From a virus, in IMG/VR virus record IMGVR_UViG_3300020169_000116, positions 1-23,769 of that record: a stretch of 23,769 bases of DNA; one strand, 5' to 3'. This document shows, piece after piece, positions 2,573 to 22,061 of this stretch (its first letter is position 1; every line of letters begins with the position of its first letter). The notes under the pieces are model-generated. The model was not told the origin of the DNA. It worked only from the letters and a program-made list of their open reading frames with translations, and did no database searches. The translations under genes were made by a program, and so were the position numbers.

Positions 2573-4537
2573 TTAAAAAGGCGGCTCCTCACTTATATAA
2601 GTACTTTCTAAAGCTAAGGAAATTTTAGGGTATTTTTCTTGCGTAAAGGTAATTATTTTAGCGGCTTCCATTAAACTAACTGCTTTAGAAGCTTCCCCTT
2701 TTTTACAGCGCTCTACATCTCGTACGTATTCTATAGCTGTGTTCCTCGTCTTTCCTACGATACTTCTAGCTATCCTTTCTAGGTCGCTAGGGCTAAACTC
2801 TTTACCCGCTGGGCCTTCCATCTCTTTAACGCTTATATCTACGTCTCTACCTTGTACGCTAAGCTCTAAGTCCGGAAAGCTTTCGTTTCTAGTATACAGC
2901 CCTTCTATGTAGGTAGTAAAGCCGTCCTCGCTTCTGCTTACACCGTAGACGGTTTCGCTCTTCTGCGTGAGGTAGCTTCCTAAATGCCCCTTAGCGGATT
3001 TATCGTGTTTATTTTCGTGCAGTATAGTTACTAGGTGAAGGTTTAGGTCGGCGCTTATTTTCATAAGGCGACTAACTAAAGCTATGCTTTCCGCTTCTTC
3101 GTTTACTCCGTTAGCTACGTCTACGATACCGTCTATAATAACTAGGCTTACTCCCTCTATTCTTTTAAGTACGTACTCTATAATAGCTAGGCGGTCGGCG
3201 TTGGTATCTGCTCTACGTAGTGCGAAGTACTTTAAGTACTCCTGGCCCTGCTCTACGGGTATTCCGGCTAAATGTAGCGTCCTTTGGTTTACCCGTTGGG
3301 CGTGAAAGTCGCCCTGCTCAGTATCGAAAAAAATTACTTTCCCTTTTACTATACCGGCCTTGAGTAAATTCTCGTTAAAGCCTTGGCGTATTGCTGCGGC
3401 AGCGAGTGCACTAACAAAGTAACTCTTTCTACTCTTTGCTTTCCCTTGTATTAGGCTTATGTTTCCTGCGGTGCCTAGTGTATAAGTCTCTAGGCCTAAA
3501 CGTAACTCTAATACGCTAGGGGGGTTACTTATATGCTCGGTAGGATCTAGTAGGTATTTAGTTAGTAGGTCGTCCTCGGTAGGCTCTTCGCTCTCTTTGG
3601 GTTCGCTTAGTGCCTCCTCGTACTGCTCTACCTCGTTTAATTTCTTAGGCTCTTGGTAGCCGTAGCCCTCAGCTTTTAAAGCTCTGCCTGCTGCCTTAAA
3701 GTCGTTACTATGCTCTAGAGCTGTATAGAGTGCGAAGGGGTTATAAAGTACTTCTGCCTCTAGCTCGGTGCTGGTGCTCCATACCCAAAGCTTACCCGTA
3801 TCTTTAAAGATCTTACCGCTATCTCTAGCGTCAGTAGTTCCCGGTCTCTTTACATAGACGTACTTACTATCCTCTCTTACTATCGTCCATCCGTAGCTTT
3901 GTAAGAGCGTTAAGCAGTCTATCTTTTCGTTATAGTCGGCCCAGGGCGTAAGCTCCTCGTTATTGGCTAGAGCTTGCTTAGGTGCTTCGTATCTTATCTC
4001 TACTTTAGGCGTCTTATCTACTTCTCTAGCGCAGCTTAGTAGTATATCGCGCTCCTCCGGCGTAATCCATTGTATAGCGCTTGCCTTAGTCTCTAGCTTA
4101 TAGCCCGGAGTAGGCCAGGCTGCTACTTGGCCTCCTATTCCTCTAGTCTCGTAGGTAACCTCTTTAGCTTCATTCTTTGCTAGCTTTTGGTTGCCTTCTA
4201 TTACCTCGCATCTATATAGGAAGTGAAAGCCTCCGCTAGGGGTTTGCTGTATTACCATTTTAGCTAAGAGGCCGGGGCCGTTTGCCTCTAGTAGTTCTAT
4301 GTACTCTTTAAACTCATTCCCGGTAAAGTGCTTAGCGTCTATATCTAAAACCTCTAGACCGTTATACCCACATACTAGGCCTAAGCTGTCCGTAGTGAAT
4401 AGGTTAAGATCTTCTATAGGTGTTTCTTTGTACTTAGTCCAATCCTTTAAAAGGGGGCGCTTCTGCCCACTTACTAAAGGTATAGGGCTGTACCCGTGTT
4501 CTAAGTATTTGCTGGCGGCTTGTTGTGTTGTTGTCAT
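2573..4537 (-). CDS. Replication protein: PrimPol primase fused to RepA-like helicase
   Basis: The 654-residue protein has an N-terminal PrimPol-type domain: GYSPIPLVSGQKRPLLKDW near residue 15, the metal-binding DID at 65-67 and SGGFHFLY with H105. A middle segment (about 200-290, ending NPFALYTALEHSNDFKAAGRAL) is typical of phage primases. The C-terminal RecA-like domain (about 350-550) has a Walker A variant GKAKSRKS (365-372), an FFDTEQGD motif (403-410) and Walker B LVIIDG (465-470). Together these make primers and unwind DNA at the fork. No separate helicase or polymerase gene is visible in the window. Confidence 0.87.
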   Translation of the reverse strand: MTTTQQAASKYLEHGYSPIPLVSGQKRPLLKDWTKYKETPIEDLNLFTTDSLGLVCGYNGLEVLDIDAKHFTGNEFKEYIELLEANGPGLLAKMVIQQTPSGGFHFLYRCEVIEGNQKLAKNEAKEVTYETRGIGGQVAAWPTPGYKLETKASAIQWITPEERDILLSCAREVDKTPKVEIRYEAPKQALANNEELTPWADYNEKIDCLTLLQSYGWTIVREDSKYVYVKRPGTTDARDSGKIFKDTGKLWVWSTSTELEAEVLYNPFALYTALEHSNDFKAAGRALKAEGYGYQEPKKLNEVEQYEEALSEPKESEEPTEDDLLTKYLLDPTEHISNPPSVLELRLGLETYTLGTAGNISLIQGKAKSRKSYFVSALAAAAIRQGFNENLLKAGIVKGKVIFFDTEQGDFHAQRVNQRTLHLAGIPVEQGQEYLKYFALRRADTNADRLAIIEYVLKRIEGVSLVIIDGIVDVANGVNEEAESIALVSRLMKISADLNLHLVTILHENKHDKSAKGHLGSYLTQKSETVYGVSRSEDGFTTYIEGLYTRNESFPDLELSVQGRDVDISVKEMEGPAGKEFSPSDLERIARSIVGKTRNTAIEYVRDVERCKKGEASKAVSLMEAAKIITFTQEKYPKISLALESTYISEEPPF

Positions 4538-6043: not shown

Positions 6044-6059
6044 TTATTTGCGCCCATTA

Positions 6060-6161
6060 TTATAGGTGTGCTCCTATTTTTAATGGCTTGAACTTTTTCC
6101 CGAACTTTTCCCCGAACTTTTTAGTGGTCTGGGTTGCGCCTATTTTTATACGCTTCTGCAT
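6060..6161 (-). CDS. Possible small basic repeat peptide (33 aa)
   Basis: An ATG-initiated frame reads through the tandem 12-mers, giving the internal repeat KKFGEKFGKKFK flanked by RIKIGA and LKIGA. It ends two bases before the next ATG. The in-frame repeat and packing are suggestive, but short frames arise by chance in lysine-rich DNA. No family is recognised. Confidence 0.3.
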   Translation of the reverse strand: MQKRIKIGATQTTKKFGEKFGKKFKPLKIGAHL

Positions 6162-6195
6162 ACAAATTGGTGGATAAACCCATCTTTATATGCTT
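6073..6195. repeat. 17-bp and 12-bp repeats
   Basis: On the minus strand three related 17-mers of the form AAGCNNNTAAANATNGG lie at 6195-6179, 6155-6139 and 6089-6073. Directly before the third come tandem 12-mers: GGGGAAAAGTTC (6113-6102) and GGGAAAAAGTTC (6101-6090), after a partial AAAAAGTTC (6122-6114). Copies two and three of the 17-mer share a reading frame, so part of the repetition may be protein-coding. Confidence 0.65.
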
Positions 6196-6240
6196 AAACT
6201 CTTGTTAGTGGTGTAAATAAGCACCATTCAATCTACTTAT

Positions 6241-6291
6241 TGTAAGGTTATAGCCTTACATTGTTTATTTAAAAGTAAGGTTATAGCCTTA
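6241..6291. repeat. Two palindromic operator-like sites
   Basis: TGTAAGG-TTATAG-CCTTACA (6241-6260) is a 20-bp dyad with 7-bp arms. A second copy of the core GTAAGGTTATAGCCTTA lies at 6275-6291. The two cores start 33 bp apart, close to three helical turns, as expected for cooperative binding of a dimeric regulator. They sit in the only sizeable gap (6184-6338) of this small-gene cluster, in which I see no gene. Confidence 0.65.
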
Positions 6292-6317
6292 TTTGTATCA
6301 TTTAAGGCTTTTTGCTG

Positions 6318-6357
6318 TGAGGATTTGCAATTCGCGAATTAAGAAGCGTTATCCTCA
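6318..6357. repeat. Nested dyad symmetry at the end of the 105-aa gene
   Basis: TGAGGAT (6318-6324) and ATCCTCA (6351-6357) form the outer arms, and the perfect 12-bp palindrome AATTCGCGAATT (6329-6340) lies inside, covering the stop codon. On the minus strand there is no U-run after it, so a protein-binding site is as likely as a terminator. Confidence 0.55.
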
Positions 6358-7593: not shown

Positions 7594-8373
7594 TTATAGT
7601 TCTCCCCGTATAATATAAGAGCTTAACGGTCTTCCCTCTATAAAGTACTCGCGGTAGATCTCGATAGCTCTAGCTACCTTCTCCTTTCCACTCTTTATAA
7701 ATTCCGGTGTAGTTGTAAATACTCCGACGTCGTAGCTGCTCTTATCTACTACAAGAAAAGTAAACTCTTCTAGACCGAAGAGATGCGTATAGATAGCCGC
7801 CTGGGCATCGTAGCCAAAAGAGTAAGCATTCCACTTAAACTTATGAATATCGGCTGTAGTCTTTAAGTCTACAATACGCGTTCCTTTATGTAGTATATCC
7901 GCTTTAGCTCTAAAGGGTAGGCCCATTATAGAACCTGCTACGGGTACCTCAGTAGCTGCTCCGTAGATCATCTCCCAAGCTTCGGGGCAGTCCTTTACCG
8001 CTCGCGCTACCTTCTTCGCTGTAGCGATCTCTATAGAGGTAAAGGTATTCTCTCCGCCAAACTCTAGCGCAGCGTCCTTATACGCTTTCGCTGTTCTGCT
8101 CTTTACGTCTATTACGTTGAGGGTCTCCTCCTTATGAGGCTCCAATAAAAGCAGGTGTATAAGCTTACCCTCTCTTAAGGCCTTGGTCTCTTGCTGCTGA
8201 TCCTTTAAGCTGGCTTCGTAAGCCTTGGGGCTCTGCAGTAGCTTCTTAAGGCTGGAGCTGCTTAGTGCTGCCTTACCTAGGTAGCCGTAGTAAAACTCGT
8301 CCTTAAGCATCTCGTCCAGGAGCTCGTTATAGTCCCAGCTTTGCCCGTCTAAGAGCTTTATTGTACGTGCCAT
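7594..8373 (-). CDS. RecE-like PD-(D/E)XK exonuclease
   Basis: The 259-residue protein matches the RecE/exodeoxyribonuclease VIII-like nuclease pattern: LSSSSLKKLLQSPKAYE (37-53), a GKLIH motif (69-73), E142, the catalytic D159, then VDLKTT with D169 and K171, and YDAQAAIY (188-195) near the end of the nuclease core. Such enzymes degrade one strand from double-strand ends to give 3' single strands for annealing. An SSB-like gene lies nearby, but no RecT/Erf/Rad52 annealase is seen in the window. The GC-stem element follows its stop. Confidence 0.88.
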   Translation of the reverse strand: MARTIKLLDGQSWDYNELLDEMLKDEFYYGYLGKAALSSSSLKKLLQSPKAYEASLKDQQQETKALREGKLIHLLLLEPHKEETLNVIDVKSRTAKAYKDAALEFGGENTFTSIEIATAKKVARAVKDCPEAWEMIYGAATEVPVAGSIMGLPFRAKADILHKGTRIVDLKTTADIHKFKWNAYSFGYDAQAAIYTHLFGLEEFTFLVVDKSSYDVGVFTTTPEFIKSGKEKVARAIEIYREYFIEGRPLSSYIIRGEL

Positions 8374-8560
8374 CGCTTTTTATTTTATCTATTCTACTTT
8401 CGTACTTCTCCTCTATAATGCGTACGTCTAATAACCCGGTAATCTCCTTTAGCAGCTCGTCCTTCTTACTGTCCGAGAGCACGCGCCAGTTATGGCGCAA
8501 GTGCTCTGCGAACGTGTAAGCTAACTTAACGCGGTCTGCCGTGTAGTTAGTTAAATACAT
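8327..8560 (-). CDS. Hypothetical helical protein (77 aa)
   Basis: The product begins MYLTNYTADRVKLAYTFAEHLRHNW and is helical and charged, ending NKALRRAKLGL. It starts three bases after the SSB-like stop and overlaps the RecE-like gene by 47 bases. The overlap is long but the frame is intact and the RecE start is well supported. No family is recognised; an accessory to the recombination pair is possible. Confidence 0.6.
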   Translation of the reverse strand: MYLTNYTADRVKLAYTFAEHLRHNWRVLSDSKKDELLKEITGLLDVRIIEEKYESRIDKIKSDGTYNKALRRAKLGL

Positions 8561-10887: not shown

Positions 10888-10895
10888 CAAATATA
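10888..10895 (-). promoter_or_regulatory. Bacteroidota-type -7 promoter element of the early block
   Basis: The minus strand reads TATATTTG, a full match to the Bacteroidota -7 consensus TAnnTTTG. Transcription would start about 17 bases before the ATG at 10864. The nearest upstream TTG (10925-10923) is 27 bases away, longer than the usual 19-21, so the -33 element is weak or absent. It is the only full TAnnTTTG match I found in the non-coding regions. Confidence 0.55.
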
Positions 10896-11110
10896 AGGGC
10901 TTTCTTTTCATATATCCTAATGCAACAGTAAAAAAAGTGTATTTATTTTCGGCTCACGCCGTGCAGCCCCTATAAACACTAGAGTTTAAGCACTAACTTT
11001 TTTTATGTAATTCCTGCGCTCCGCTTCTCTCTACCCTAAAAAGCTTTAACGGTTAAATTGAGTATTTAAACCTATTGCACAATAAAACCCTTTGTTGCTT
11101 TTTACCCTAG

Positions 11111-11134
11111 TTAGTATTAGTATTAGTATTAGTA
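11111..11134. repeat. TTAGTA hexanucleotide repeat x 4
   Basis: Four perfect tandem TTAGTA units, followed by a fifth partial unit and the CTAG-containing inverted repeat AACTAGTTACTAGTT read on the minus strand. Confidence 0.9.
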
Positions 11135-11143
11135 TTAACTAGT

Positions 11144-11208
11144 AACTAGTTAGTAGTAGCTCTGCTACCTTTAGCTAAAGCTACGGTAGCGTGAGCTACT
11201 ACCTAGTT
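11144..11208 (-). terminator. Long imperfect hairpin, possible late-operon terminator or processing site
   Basis: On the plus strand AACTAG (11144-11149) pairs with CTAGTT (11203-11208), GTAGTAGCTC (11153-11162) with GAGCTACTAC (11193-11202), and GCTACC (11164-11169) with GGTAGC (11185-11190). The loop contains the palindrome TTTAGCTAAA. That is 22 paired positions with three small bulges. No clean U-run follows on the minus strand, so rho-independent termination is not certain. Confidence 0.55.
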
Positions 11209-11210
11209 AA

Positions 11211-11226
11211 GTTAGTTAGTTAGTTA
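11211..11226. repeat. GTTA tetranucleotide repeat x 4
   Basis: Four perfect GTTA units lie between the right arm of the long hairpin and the polypurine tract and run into GTTAAC. Confidence 0.8.
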
Positions 11227-11234
11227 ACTCAGCT

Positions 11235-11269
11235 AAAGAAAAAAAGAAAGTAGAAAGAAAAAAAGAAAG
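11235..11269. repeat. Polypurine direct repeat, 16 bp x 2
   Basis: AAAGAAAAAAAGAAAG occurs exactly at 11235-11250 and again at 11254-11269 on the plus strand, separated by TAG (19-bp period). The minus-strand transcript would carry a pyrimidine-rich tract directly after the spanin stop codon. Confidence 0.85.
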
Positions 11270-11276
11270 GGAGAGG

Positions 11277-11690
11277 CTAAGGGCGAAATAAAGCGCGGCT
11301 AACAGCCAGCGCGAATATAAGCCCCACAATAACTAGAGCTGGTTTAAACCACCAAGGCACCCTAGTAACTGTCCTGGTCTTAGTAGGGAGCTCTACCGTA
11401 TTGGTTACTACTACCGTGTCTGCTTTACATTCCACGTCTAGAGTAATGGTGTCGTAAGATCTTATAACCCTCGCGCTTACGCGCTCGGTCTCGATAACTA
11501 GGGTATCTACCGGTAAGGTTACTAGTACTGTGTCTACTCTTACAGCTTCTACTACGATAGTGTCGTGTAGGGTTACTTGCGTTTTAAGAGGTGTTAGAGC
11601 GTTTCTAATGACGTTACACCCCGTCAGTAAGGGTAATATATAGAACGCTAAGAGAAAGGCCCTTAAACGGGCTGTATTTAATTTACGCAT
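11277..11690 (-). CDS. Probable unimolecular spanin (lipoprotein with C-terminal membrane helix)
   Basis: The 137-residue product has a basic n-region (MRKLNTARLR), a hydrophobic core and a lipobox LLTGC with the acylated cysteine at 25. A long threonine- and valine-rich, beta-type periplasmic part follows (HDTIVVEAVRVDTVLVTLPVDTLVI...). The C-terminal membrane helix is at about 117-131 (PALVIVGLIFALAVS), followed by a basic tip. Lipid anchor in the outer membrane plus helix in the inner membrane, with a beta-rich linker, is the plan of phage T1 gp11, which fuses the two membranes in the last step of lysis. Length is close to T1 gp11 (134). Position at the end of the lysis cluster agrees. The role is inferred from architecture. 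Confidence 0.7.
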   Translation of the reverse strand: MRKLNTARLRAFLLAFYILPLLTGCNVIRNALTPLKTQVTLHDTIVVEAVRVDTVLVTLPVDTLVIETERVSARVIRSYDTITLDVECKADTVVVTNTVELPTKTRTVTRVPWWFKPALVIVGLIFALAVSRALFRP

Positions 11691-12058: not shown

Positions 12059-12478
12059 TTACTTTTTATTTAAAAATCCGTAAACCTCTTGCACATCAAA
12101 AGAAGGGCAAGCTTTAGCCGCAAATTCATTATGCCCGTGTAGCGTAGCTCCGGGGTATTGCTCTAACAAAGCGCTTAAAAAGTTTACTAGAGCTGTATCT
12201 TGCTCCGGTGTTCTAGTGTCCTTCGGAGTCTTTCCGTCAGTCTCTACACCCCCGATATAGCAAACGCCAATACTCGTACTGTTATAACCCTTTGTATGCG
12301 CTCCGCTTCTTTCTATTGGCCTAGCGTCGTTAATAGAACCGTCTAAGTATATAACATAATGGTAACCTATATCGCTCCAGCCTCTCTTTAAATGCCATTT
12401 ACGTATAGTTTCTACGCTAATATCTTGACCCTCTCTAGTAGCTGAACAATGCAATATAATTTTTTTTATTTCTCTCAT
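12059..12478 (-). CDS. Endolysin: N-acetylmuramoyl-L-alanine amidase, T7-lysozyme type (Amidase_2)
   Basis: The enzyme cleaves the bond between N-acetylmuramic acid and L-alanine in peptidoglycan. With the start at 12478 it has 139 residues beginning MREIKKIILHCSAT. Key residues line up with T7 lysozyme: zinc ligands H10, H116 and C124, catalytic Y39 and K122. Spacings equal those of T7 (H17, Y46, H122, K128, C130). An upstream in-frame ATG at 12517 would add 13 residues of non-domain sequence and would overlap the 37-aa gene, so 12478 is preferred. No signal peptide is present, so a holin should release it. Confidence 0.93.
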   Translation of the reverse strand: MREIKKIILHCSATREGQDISVETIRKWHLKRGWSDIGYHYVIYLDGSINDARPIERSGAHTKGYNSTSIGVCYIGGVETDGKTPKDTRTPEQDTALVNFLSALLEQYPGATLHGHNEFAAKACPSFDVQEVYGFLNKK

Positions 12479-12482
12479 ATCT

Positions 12483-12596
12483 TTAACTCCCGCAGGCTTC
12501 GCAGTCGGGGTTATCAATAGTGCAAGCTTCCGGCTGCTCGGCTTCTTCCATTTCTTTAATAAAATCGTTAAAGCTGTCTTCCCAGTTATCGCTCAT
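12483..12596 (-). CDS. Small acidic cysteine-containing protein (37 aa)
   Basis: The frame starts at ATG 12596, directly after the coiled-coil gene, and ends five bases before the preferred amidase start. The product is strongly acidic (MSDNWEDSFNDFIKEMEEAE) with a cysteine-containing end (ACTIDNPDCEACGS). No family is recognised. Support comes from tight packing between two real genes. Confidence 0.45.
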   Translation of the reverse strand: MSDNWEDSFNDFIKEMEEAEQPEACTIDNPDCEACGS

Positions 12597-21421: not shown

Positions 21422-22061
21422 CTGCTTAGAATTGCTTTAGCTTCTTGTTTGTTTAGCTTTGCGGCTTTGTGTTTATTTTCCCAAGGGAAGCGGACTAAGT
21501 CCGTAGCTTTTACCTTTTTGTTTTTTGGTAGCTGTAGGTTTACTAGTACCGTAGTACTCCACCTCTCACGCTCCCAGCTTTGCTGCTGGCCTACTTCGTA
21601 TAAATTAAAGAAGCCCTTAAGGGCGTTCTCTAACTCTCTAGGCGTCGCTTCGTAGAAGGTCGCCGGCGTCCAGCTAAGCTGCCCTAAAGCTAGCTCCTGG
21701 TAATAGTCAAAAGTTAAAGGGGCTGCCGGGCCTTCACCCGGCGCCCCGTTTACTTTTTTTCCTCTTCCGAGGAATTAAAGCTAGAGCTAAACACATTTAA
21801 TACCTGCTCCATAGCTTCGGGCTTTTCGTCTAGCCAGTCCGCTATATCTTCGATCGTATGTTTATAAGGTTGCTTTTCTACTCTAGCGCCGTGCTTCAAT
21901 CCGCACCACACTAAAAAGAGCGCGTCCTTAAGTTTCATATTCTCGCCTAGTTTATCTAAGTCGGCCATAGTATAGCCGTTCTCTTCGGTAAATTCCATAA
22001 GCGCAGCGAAACCGAATTTAACCGGCCTGCTTACTCCTCCTATTTCTACGTGTTTAACCAT
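21403..22061 (-). CDS. Tail assembly chaperone, -1 frameshifted (GT-like) long form
   Basis: A shift to the -1 frame at A AAA AAG (21753-21759) lets translation bypass the TAA at 21750 and continue through 116 codons to TAG at 21403-21405. The product is 219 residues. The extension begins VNGAPGEGPAAPLTFDYYQ and includes a helix-rich stretch (EATPRELENALKGFFNLYEVG), a tryptophan-containing segment and a lysine-rich end (KHKAAKLNKQEAKAILSRWQKGQ). I read every codon of the extension and found no ATG, GTG or TTG, so independent initiation is unlikely. It overlaps the tape measure start by 19 bases. The arrangement matches lambda G/GT, where the T part recruits the tail tube protein. Confidence 0.85.
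21719..21759 (-). promoter_or_regulatory. Programmed -1 ribosomal frameshift signal (slippery site plus stem-loop)
   Basis: The heptamer A AAA AAG lies in the correct phase at 21759-21753. After five bases comes a strong hairpin: GGGGC GCCGGG (21747-21737), a six-base loop TGAAGG, then CCCGGC (21730-21725), one bulged A (21724) and GCCCC (21723-21719). This gives eleven G-C pairs. Slippery heptamer, short spacer and stable downstream stem are the three elements of known bacterial -1 frameshift signals such as dnaX. Confidence 0.85.
21750..22061 (-). CDS. Tail assembly chaperone, short (G-like) form
   Basis: This is the zero-frame product of 103 residues. It begins MVKHVEIGGVSRPVKFGFAA, has helical segments (LMEFTEENGYTMADLDKL, DALFLVWCGLKHGA, IEDIADWLDEKPEAMEQVLNVF) and ends in an acidic tail SSEEEKK. 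Helical chaperones of this kind precede the tape measure gene in nearly all siphoviruses and bind the tape measure before tube polymerisation (lambda gpG). The last sense codons are GAA AAA AAG before TAA, which form the slippery heptamer A AAA AAG that gives the longer GT form. Confidence 0.85.
   Translation of the reverse strand: MVKHVEIGGVSRPVKFGFAALMEFTEENGYTMADLDKLGENMKLKDALFLVWCGLKHGARVEKQPYKHTIEDIADWLDEKPEAMEQVLNVFSSSFNSSEEEKK

Follow-up and report, generated by a model that had tools for sequence, protein, structure and literature searches.

Replication of pRN1 requires a stem-loop of about 100 nt, the structure of which is conserved while its sequence is conserved very poorly between conserved flanks, and its protein ORF904 primes at GTG, although in the same account the GTG motifs can be mutated without loss of replication (PMC4234260). 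Similar stem-loops are proposed there as origins in Bordetella phages and in some phages with a Prim-Pol (PMC4234260). In RSF1010, ssiA is described as a hairpin followed by GTG, and RepB' uses hairpin sites with GTG (PMC4434180). For the PrimPol of NrS-1, GTGA is reported to be an efficient priming motif (PMC8718748).

The locus compared here with these systems comes from an uncultured phage, the host of which is probably a member of the Bacteroidota, and is the junction at which its late genes give way to its early ones. The virus record holding it (IMG/VR IMGVR_UViG_3300020169_000116, 23,769 bases) was analysed over its whole length and is called the window. As in pRN1, the phage has a replication protein that joins an AEP prim-pol to a helicase, and a noncoding stem-loop is kept in shape at low sequence conservation between better-kept flanks, together with a putative GTG priming motif; as described in PMC4234260, however, pRN1 has an SF3 helicase and a winged helix instead of an AAA_25 helicase domain, and its stem-loop follows the rep gene immediately on the 3' side, whereas the element described here lies 4.7-8.2 kb upstream of the Prim-Pol gene in all six contigs holding both, before the early promoter. 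With the oriV of RSF1010 (ssiA/ssiB, RepA, RepB' and RepC) the junction would share hairpin-directed priming with a GTG motif and a RecA-fold helicase, but RSF1010 needs iterons bound by RepC and keeps primase and helicase separate (PMC4434180, PMC4234260), whereas conserved iterons are absent here and the two parts are fused. The RSF1010 ssi sites have a hairpin of about 40 nt with GTG shortly 3', one per strand; here a small hairpin on one of the strands carries GTGA as its loop, and in the junction alignment the large hairpin is not seen to be followed immediately by a conserved GTG on its 3' side. NrS-1 likewise pairs a phage Prim-Pol with a GTGA priming motif (PMC8718748, PMC7102993), but its 8-nt site TTTGGTTA occurs in none of the 11 junctions, and its two occurrences elsewhere in the window are at chance level. 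The SCCmec and SaPI origins resemble the locus in having an initiator helicase and primase at a nearby noncoding repeat region, but are defined by sequence-conserved iterons (PMC7581432), which were not found at this junction. The junction is taken to work like these systems, but since location, helicase type and iterons differ, we do not assign it to any of them. No description of the element was found in the literature searched on such phage origins, which excludes most subscription papers and all preprints.

Genomic setting and relatives

Nearly all genes of the window lie on the - strand, and the junction is read below along that strand, in the direction of transcription. Tail genes, an amidase gene (12059-12517) and a small lipoprotein-like ORF (11277-11690), the last gene at the lysis end of the late operon, precede the junction, and early genes for a DNA methyltransferase, a protein that we take to be SSB-like, an exonuclease VIII-like protein and the Prim-Pol follow it. 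The lipoprotein-like ORF has no PHROG or Pfam match and is presumably spanin-like. The original prediction had placed a dense repeat cluster at 11103-11276. The stretch of interest should be widened to about 10888-11267, because the conserved element runs on downstream, taking in an AAAAA-N21-CAATAGGT block, a GTGA hairpin and the early promoter.

The replication protein (2573-4537, - strand) matches PF09250 at residues 8-161 (E 3e-14) and PF13481 at residues 357-511, both above cut-off, and its nearest solved chains are those of pRN1 ORF904 (E 0.001-0.007). Its helicase region is of the PF13481 (AAA_25) type, without an SF3 match; we assume that RSF1010 RepA is PF13481 as well. An AlphaFold model of the protein was too poor to inform (mean pLDDT 40.5). 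The Prim-Pol has half-matches in 48 named-phage records, some of them from Cellulophaga, Flavobacterium and Olleya phages, all below 60% identity. A DNA comparison with the junction found nothing in the named phages, and the SSB-like protein and a 790-aa tail protein had no match there either. One locus, L020, encodes a Prim-Pol that is 96% identical, yet its upstream genes differ for 5.9 kb and the junction block is missing there, so the replicase module may be swapped between phage backgrounds.

Relatives were gathered from viral contigs by protein and pattern searches, and the same junction was found in 12 records representing 11 distinct sequences, namely the window (with its near twin L003), L022, L006, L017, L019, L011, L023, L015, L191, L201 and L204. 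The pattern AAAAA-N21-CAATAGGT-WWWWAWAC retrieved 20 stretches of viral_contigs, 11 of which carry the element; the pattern of the paired T7 tracts is unspecific alone, matching at least 120 stretches. A covariance model of T tracts and hairpin (R1) scored 91-128 bits on element carriers. All its further matches among 190 sources had E values of 0.46 or worse, and the 73 new loci from the T7-tract search yielded no new member (best E 0.17). Neither Prim-Pol alignment nor the junction pattern retrieved a relative from genome_contigs. One related contig (G001; 30,878 bases) has an exact terminal repeat of 141 bases, so that the genome, of about 30.7 kb, is probably complete.

Further features were observed elsewhere in the phage. 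A strong G+C hairpin lies within coding sequence at ~8465-8520 (- strand), in a small ORF (8327-8560) after the SSB-like gene. It is kept with differing stem letters in eight distinct copies that were folded (L106/window, L006, L015, L017, L019, L191, L204 and L211) as well as in the L011 contig, and may be an operator acting as RNA or a further site of priming. At 21753-21760 (- strand), at the end of ORF 21750-22061, the run AAAAAAAG is accompanied by a strong stem-loop and, behind it, an open -1 frame of 110 codons. The run is likely to direct a programmed -1 frameshift, presumably of the tail assembly chaperone type.

Conserved and variable parts of the element

In 5' to 3' order the element consists of a pair of T7 tracts, the large hairpin, a variable spacer, the AAAAA-N21-CAATAGGT block with a AGCTTTTT box, the GTGA hairpin and the promoter. 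The T7 tracts lie in a polypyrimidine stretch (CTTTTTTTCTTT.../TTTCTTTTTTTCTTT; 11232-11265, - strand) and are the other strand of an exact polypurine 16-mer repeat, AAAGAAAAAAAGAAAG, which had been noted earlier and is indeed present at 11235 and 11254 (+ strand) with a period of 19. The pair occurs in all 11 sequences, with starts 19-22 bp apart (19, 20, 20 or 22).

The short units noted along with it are also real, comprising four consecutive GTTA units (11211-11226), four TTAGTA units (11111-11134) and CTAG dyads at 11107, 11139, 11146 and 11203. Among 300 first-order Markov windows, a 15-mer repeated within 60 bases arose in two and a fourfold tandem hexamer in none. On the - strand, however, neither the AACT/GTTA array (11199-11227) nor the TACTAA/TTAGTA array (11111-11135) is conserved, each having four copies in the window and 0-3 in the other 10 sequences. 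Because copy number varies from 0 to 4 over the 11 sequences, the tandem units are not iterons, and the iteron-like repeats that had been offered as an origin mark lose that meaning. An iteron origin was accordingly rejected: repeats conserved in both sequence and spacing are absent in the relatives, where the T7-tract pair alone is kept. Alignment of the same junction in relatives had been suggested as a check, with a lack of repeats there counting against an origin; the T7 (polypurine) pair, the hairpin, the blocks and the GTGA stem are kept in 11 of 11, but the short tandem units are not. In the spacer between hairpin and AAAAA, short second dyads replace the TACTAA units in L015, L019, L023, L191 and L204, for example TTACTACTACGTAGTAGTAA in L015 and TACTCACTACGTGAGTA in L023.

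The large imperfect hairpin (11143-11209, core 11153-11202, - strand) is built of an outer stem, asymmetric internal loops, a 4-bp apical stem and a tetraloop. It had been described with 22 pairs and a loop palindrome; the hairpin is present but has 27 pairs (7 in the lower stem, 10 in the outer, 6 in the middle and 4 in the apical stem), and the palindrome TTTAGCTAAA is the apical TAGC/GCTA stem with its TTTA (or TAAA) tetraloop. The window hairpin folds with a z score of -5.8 as RNA and of -4.9 and -5.3 as DNA on the two strands, none of 200 shuffles being as good, and z scores range from -3.9 to -6.1 in the seven sequences folded. When folds were ranked genome-wide in three records, the junction hairpin came first in G001, fourth and seventh in the window, and outside the top eight in G002.

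A hairpin of 48-55 nt is common to all 11 sequences, with the same topology and differing stem sequences. Each has an outer stem, a middle stem, an asymmetric internal loop with G or GN facing AA, TAA or GTAA, a 4-bp apical stem and a loop of 3-4 nt. In L006 the flanks match those of the window at 93-100% identity and the hairpin at 68%, and the fold is still of the same kind. A census over the 11 sequences gave 224 pairs, comprising 220 Watson-Crick pairs, three G-T pairs, no A-C pair and one other, with a structure-guided pairing in which the alignment follows the fold and hence leans towards it. When MAFFT aligned the sequences with no regard to structure, 89.7% of the cells paired and 9 of 16 aligned pairs carried two-sided changes. 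The covariation score beats 500 of 500 shuffles and all slid controls, which are 17-47% paired; the structure scored was the RNAalifold consensus of the unslid alignment, so that the comparison with the slid controls is tilted towards that alignment. As judged from these alignments, all eleven related sequences found keep the shape of the hairpin, and not its letters.

The block AAAAA-N21-CAATAGGT-WWWWAWAC (11062-11103, - strand) has exact spacing in all 11 sequences, its boxes lying about two helical turns apart, and the AGCTTTTT box (11035-11047, - strand) is invariant in the alignment of the 11. The small G+C stem with a GTGA loop (cggc-GTGA-gccg; 10950-10961, - strand) has at least one counterpart in every member, with cggc/gccg, cgc/gcg, gcgc/gcgc and gggc/gccc as stems. 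When the complete records are searched on both strands, the window, G002 and G003 each contain this hairpin at the junction only; G001 holds four, two of them within the junction. The -7 element of the early promoter, TATATTTG, lies at 10888-10895 (- strand), and TAT[ACT]TT[TA]G is found at the same place in all 10 members whose contig reaches the promoter. In most members the early promoters fit the Bacteroidota consensus TTTG/TANNTTTG given in PMC6847099. Upstream of the element no conserved promoter was found, TANNTTTG occurring close upstream in L015 only. In L015 the early-promoter module is present twice (2698-2776 and 1919-2034), the second copy behind two small ORFs.

Proposed replication initiation and competing readings

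We see about an even chance that the junction is a hairpin-type replication origin or priming region, set within the early control region of a phage of about 30 kb with its own Prim-Pol/AAA_25 (RepA-like) protein. Replication initiation is put first because of the shape-kept hairpin with GTGA on a second hairpin, the Prim-Pol/AAA_25 protein and the precedents of pRN1, NrS-1 and RSF1010. The idea of an origin or regulatory hub thus remains the best reading, but the reasons originally given for it fail. Strand asymmetry says little, since nearly all genes lie on one strand, and the sequence is no more than moderately A+T-rich (57-72% per 100-base window). The proposed GC-skew check gave no support: the whole-window skew is monotone because of the same gene orientation, and an apparent break at the junction in the skew of all third positions was, for GC, not upheld at four-fold sites, where four genomes give no consistent contrast across the junction (-0.036, 0.026, 0.111 and -0.092; gene permutation p 0.75, 0.35, 0.10 and 0.77). 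The AT-skew contrast across the junction is positive in four of four (p 0.009, 0.0045, 0.14 and 0.04) but confounded with gene class, and in the three contigs that are complete or nearly so the best break falls 2.5-5 kb upstream of the junction. Further points against an origin are the distance from the Prim-Pol gene, which sets the phage apart from pRN1, the missing NrS-1 site, the dispensable GTG motifs of pRN1, the frequency of GTGA-type loops in RNA and the lack of the block upstream of the 96% identical Prim-Pol of L020.

In such an origin the fixed DNA boxes, that is the T7-tract pair and AAAAA-N21-CAATAGGT, would be bound by proteins, and the large inverted repeat would be opened, or extruded, as a hairpin recognised by shape and not by letters. 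The helicase part of the Prim-Pol would load on the opened DNA, and the primase part would start a primer at the GTGA shown on the adjoining small G+C hairpin. Early transcription would begin at the promoter on the far edge, and origin opening and first gene expression could be coupled. We infer each of these steps, and the replication assignment itself, from parts, conservation and covariation that were observed.

The main rival, ranked second, is that the element acts as RNA, as a leader, a 3' end or a small RNA whose hairpins control termination, stability or early expression, which we consider rather unlikely. The sense strand folds strongly in all seven sequences folded, the hairpin covaries, the three wobble pairs are all GT on the sense strand with none AC, and the orientation is fixed before the early promoter; GTGA loops also count as GNRA-type tetraloops, which are common in RNA. 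Wobble pairs make up only 3 of the 224, however, and such scarcity is expected if the pairing matters in DNA. The seven less related sequences contribute 144 pairs, and three or fewer wobbles among these would arise with a chance of 0.0025 at a wobble rate of 8%, as in many RNAs, of 0.07 at 5% and of 0.37 at 3%. The near-pure Watson-Crick pairing may therefore fit selection on DNA better than on RNA, but is suggestive only. DNA folds about equally strongly on both strands in the window, though less so in L006, and Rfam gave no match in the window at the gathering threshold. The conserved early promoter, moreover, lies downstream of the element with no counterpart upstream, and in 6 of 11 sequences a terminator and a convergent gene cut the element off from late transcription. 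The same arrangement bears on a late-operon terminator or insulator, the alternative named in the original prediction, which relatives largely refute and which we regard as next to negligible. The element does sit at the end of the lysis genes and starts directly behind the lipoprotein gene in 4 of 11, but its stem is A+T-rich without a T-run on either strand, and a terminator scan gives no site at the hairpin. In 6 of 11 relatives, the window not among them, a convergent small gene (L011 3793-4056, L015 1066-1428 and L019 85-339, for example, on the - strand of the loci) and a bidirectional terminator of its own, a separate G+C stem with T-run, lie between the lipoprotein gene and the element, which is thus not simply a late terminator.

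Ranked third, and decidedly unlikely, is a double-stranded operator, with regulators from host or phage switching the early promoter through binding sites in the T7 tracts, in the AAAAA-N21-CAATAGGT boxes and in the inverted repeat. The two boxes keep their distance of two helical turns exactly in 11 of 11, the promoter stands at a similar distance in 10 of 10, and the flanking genes are divergent in 6 of 11; an operator dyad should, however, keep its letters, whereas here the stem letters change while pairing stays, and the GTGA hairpin is left unexplained. Template-switch (quasipalindrome) repair, keeping the arms in step in place of selection, with the tandem units as slippage products, would account for nearly perfect pairing, for freely varying flanking units and for pair-keeping changes that are mostly two-sided (23 cells against three one-sided). 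It is nevertheless highly unlikely, as the asymmetric internal loop and the loop size survive differing stems, and correction of one arm by the other would erase the asymmetry.

Other candidates were rejected. In the stretch 6058-6338, perhaps an operator, a 33-bp repeat containing a TAAGGCTATAACCTTA dyad is found twice, and a 12-bp repeat of the AAAAGTTCGGG type three times. As a rival origin, with its two dyads and its three AAAAGTTC repeats, it was dismissed, both repeats being shared only with the near-identical L003; elsewhere among relatives there are partial matches. A packaging site at the junction was dismissed since the HNH-TerS-TerL-portal order in G002, where these gene names are our assumption, puts the likely packaging end elsewhere.

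Should the junction initiate replication, it might even represent a distinct class of phage origin, a possibility that we raise tentatively. Such a class would combine a fused Prim-Pol/AAA_25 protein, paired T-tracts with a fast re-lettered cruciform, and GTGA on a separate hairpin, and would lie in the early promoter region and not beside the replicase gene. Origins are known for very few of the phages that copy their DNA with primase-polymerase fusions. The region is a compact candidate that makes a testable prediction of the strand, the hairpin and the four bases at which priming would occur, and the comparison of relatives separates a conserved shape from decorative tandem repeats that resemble iterons by eye.
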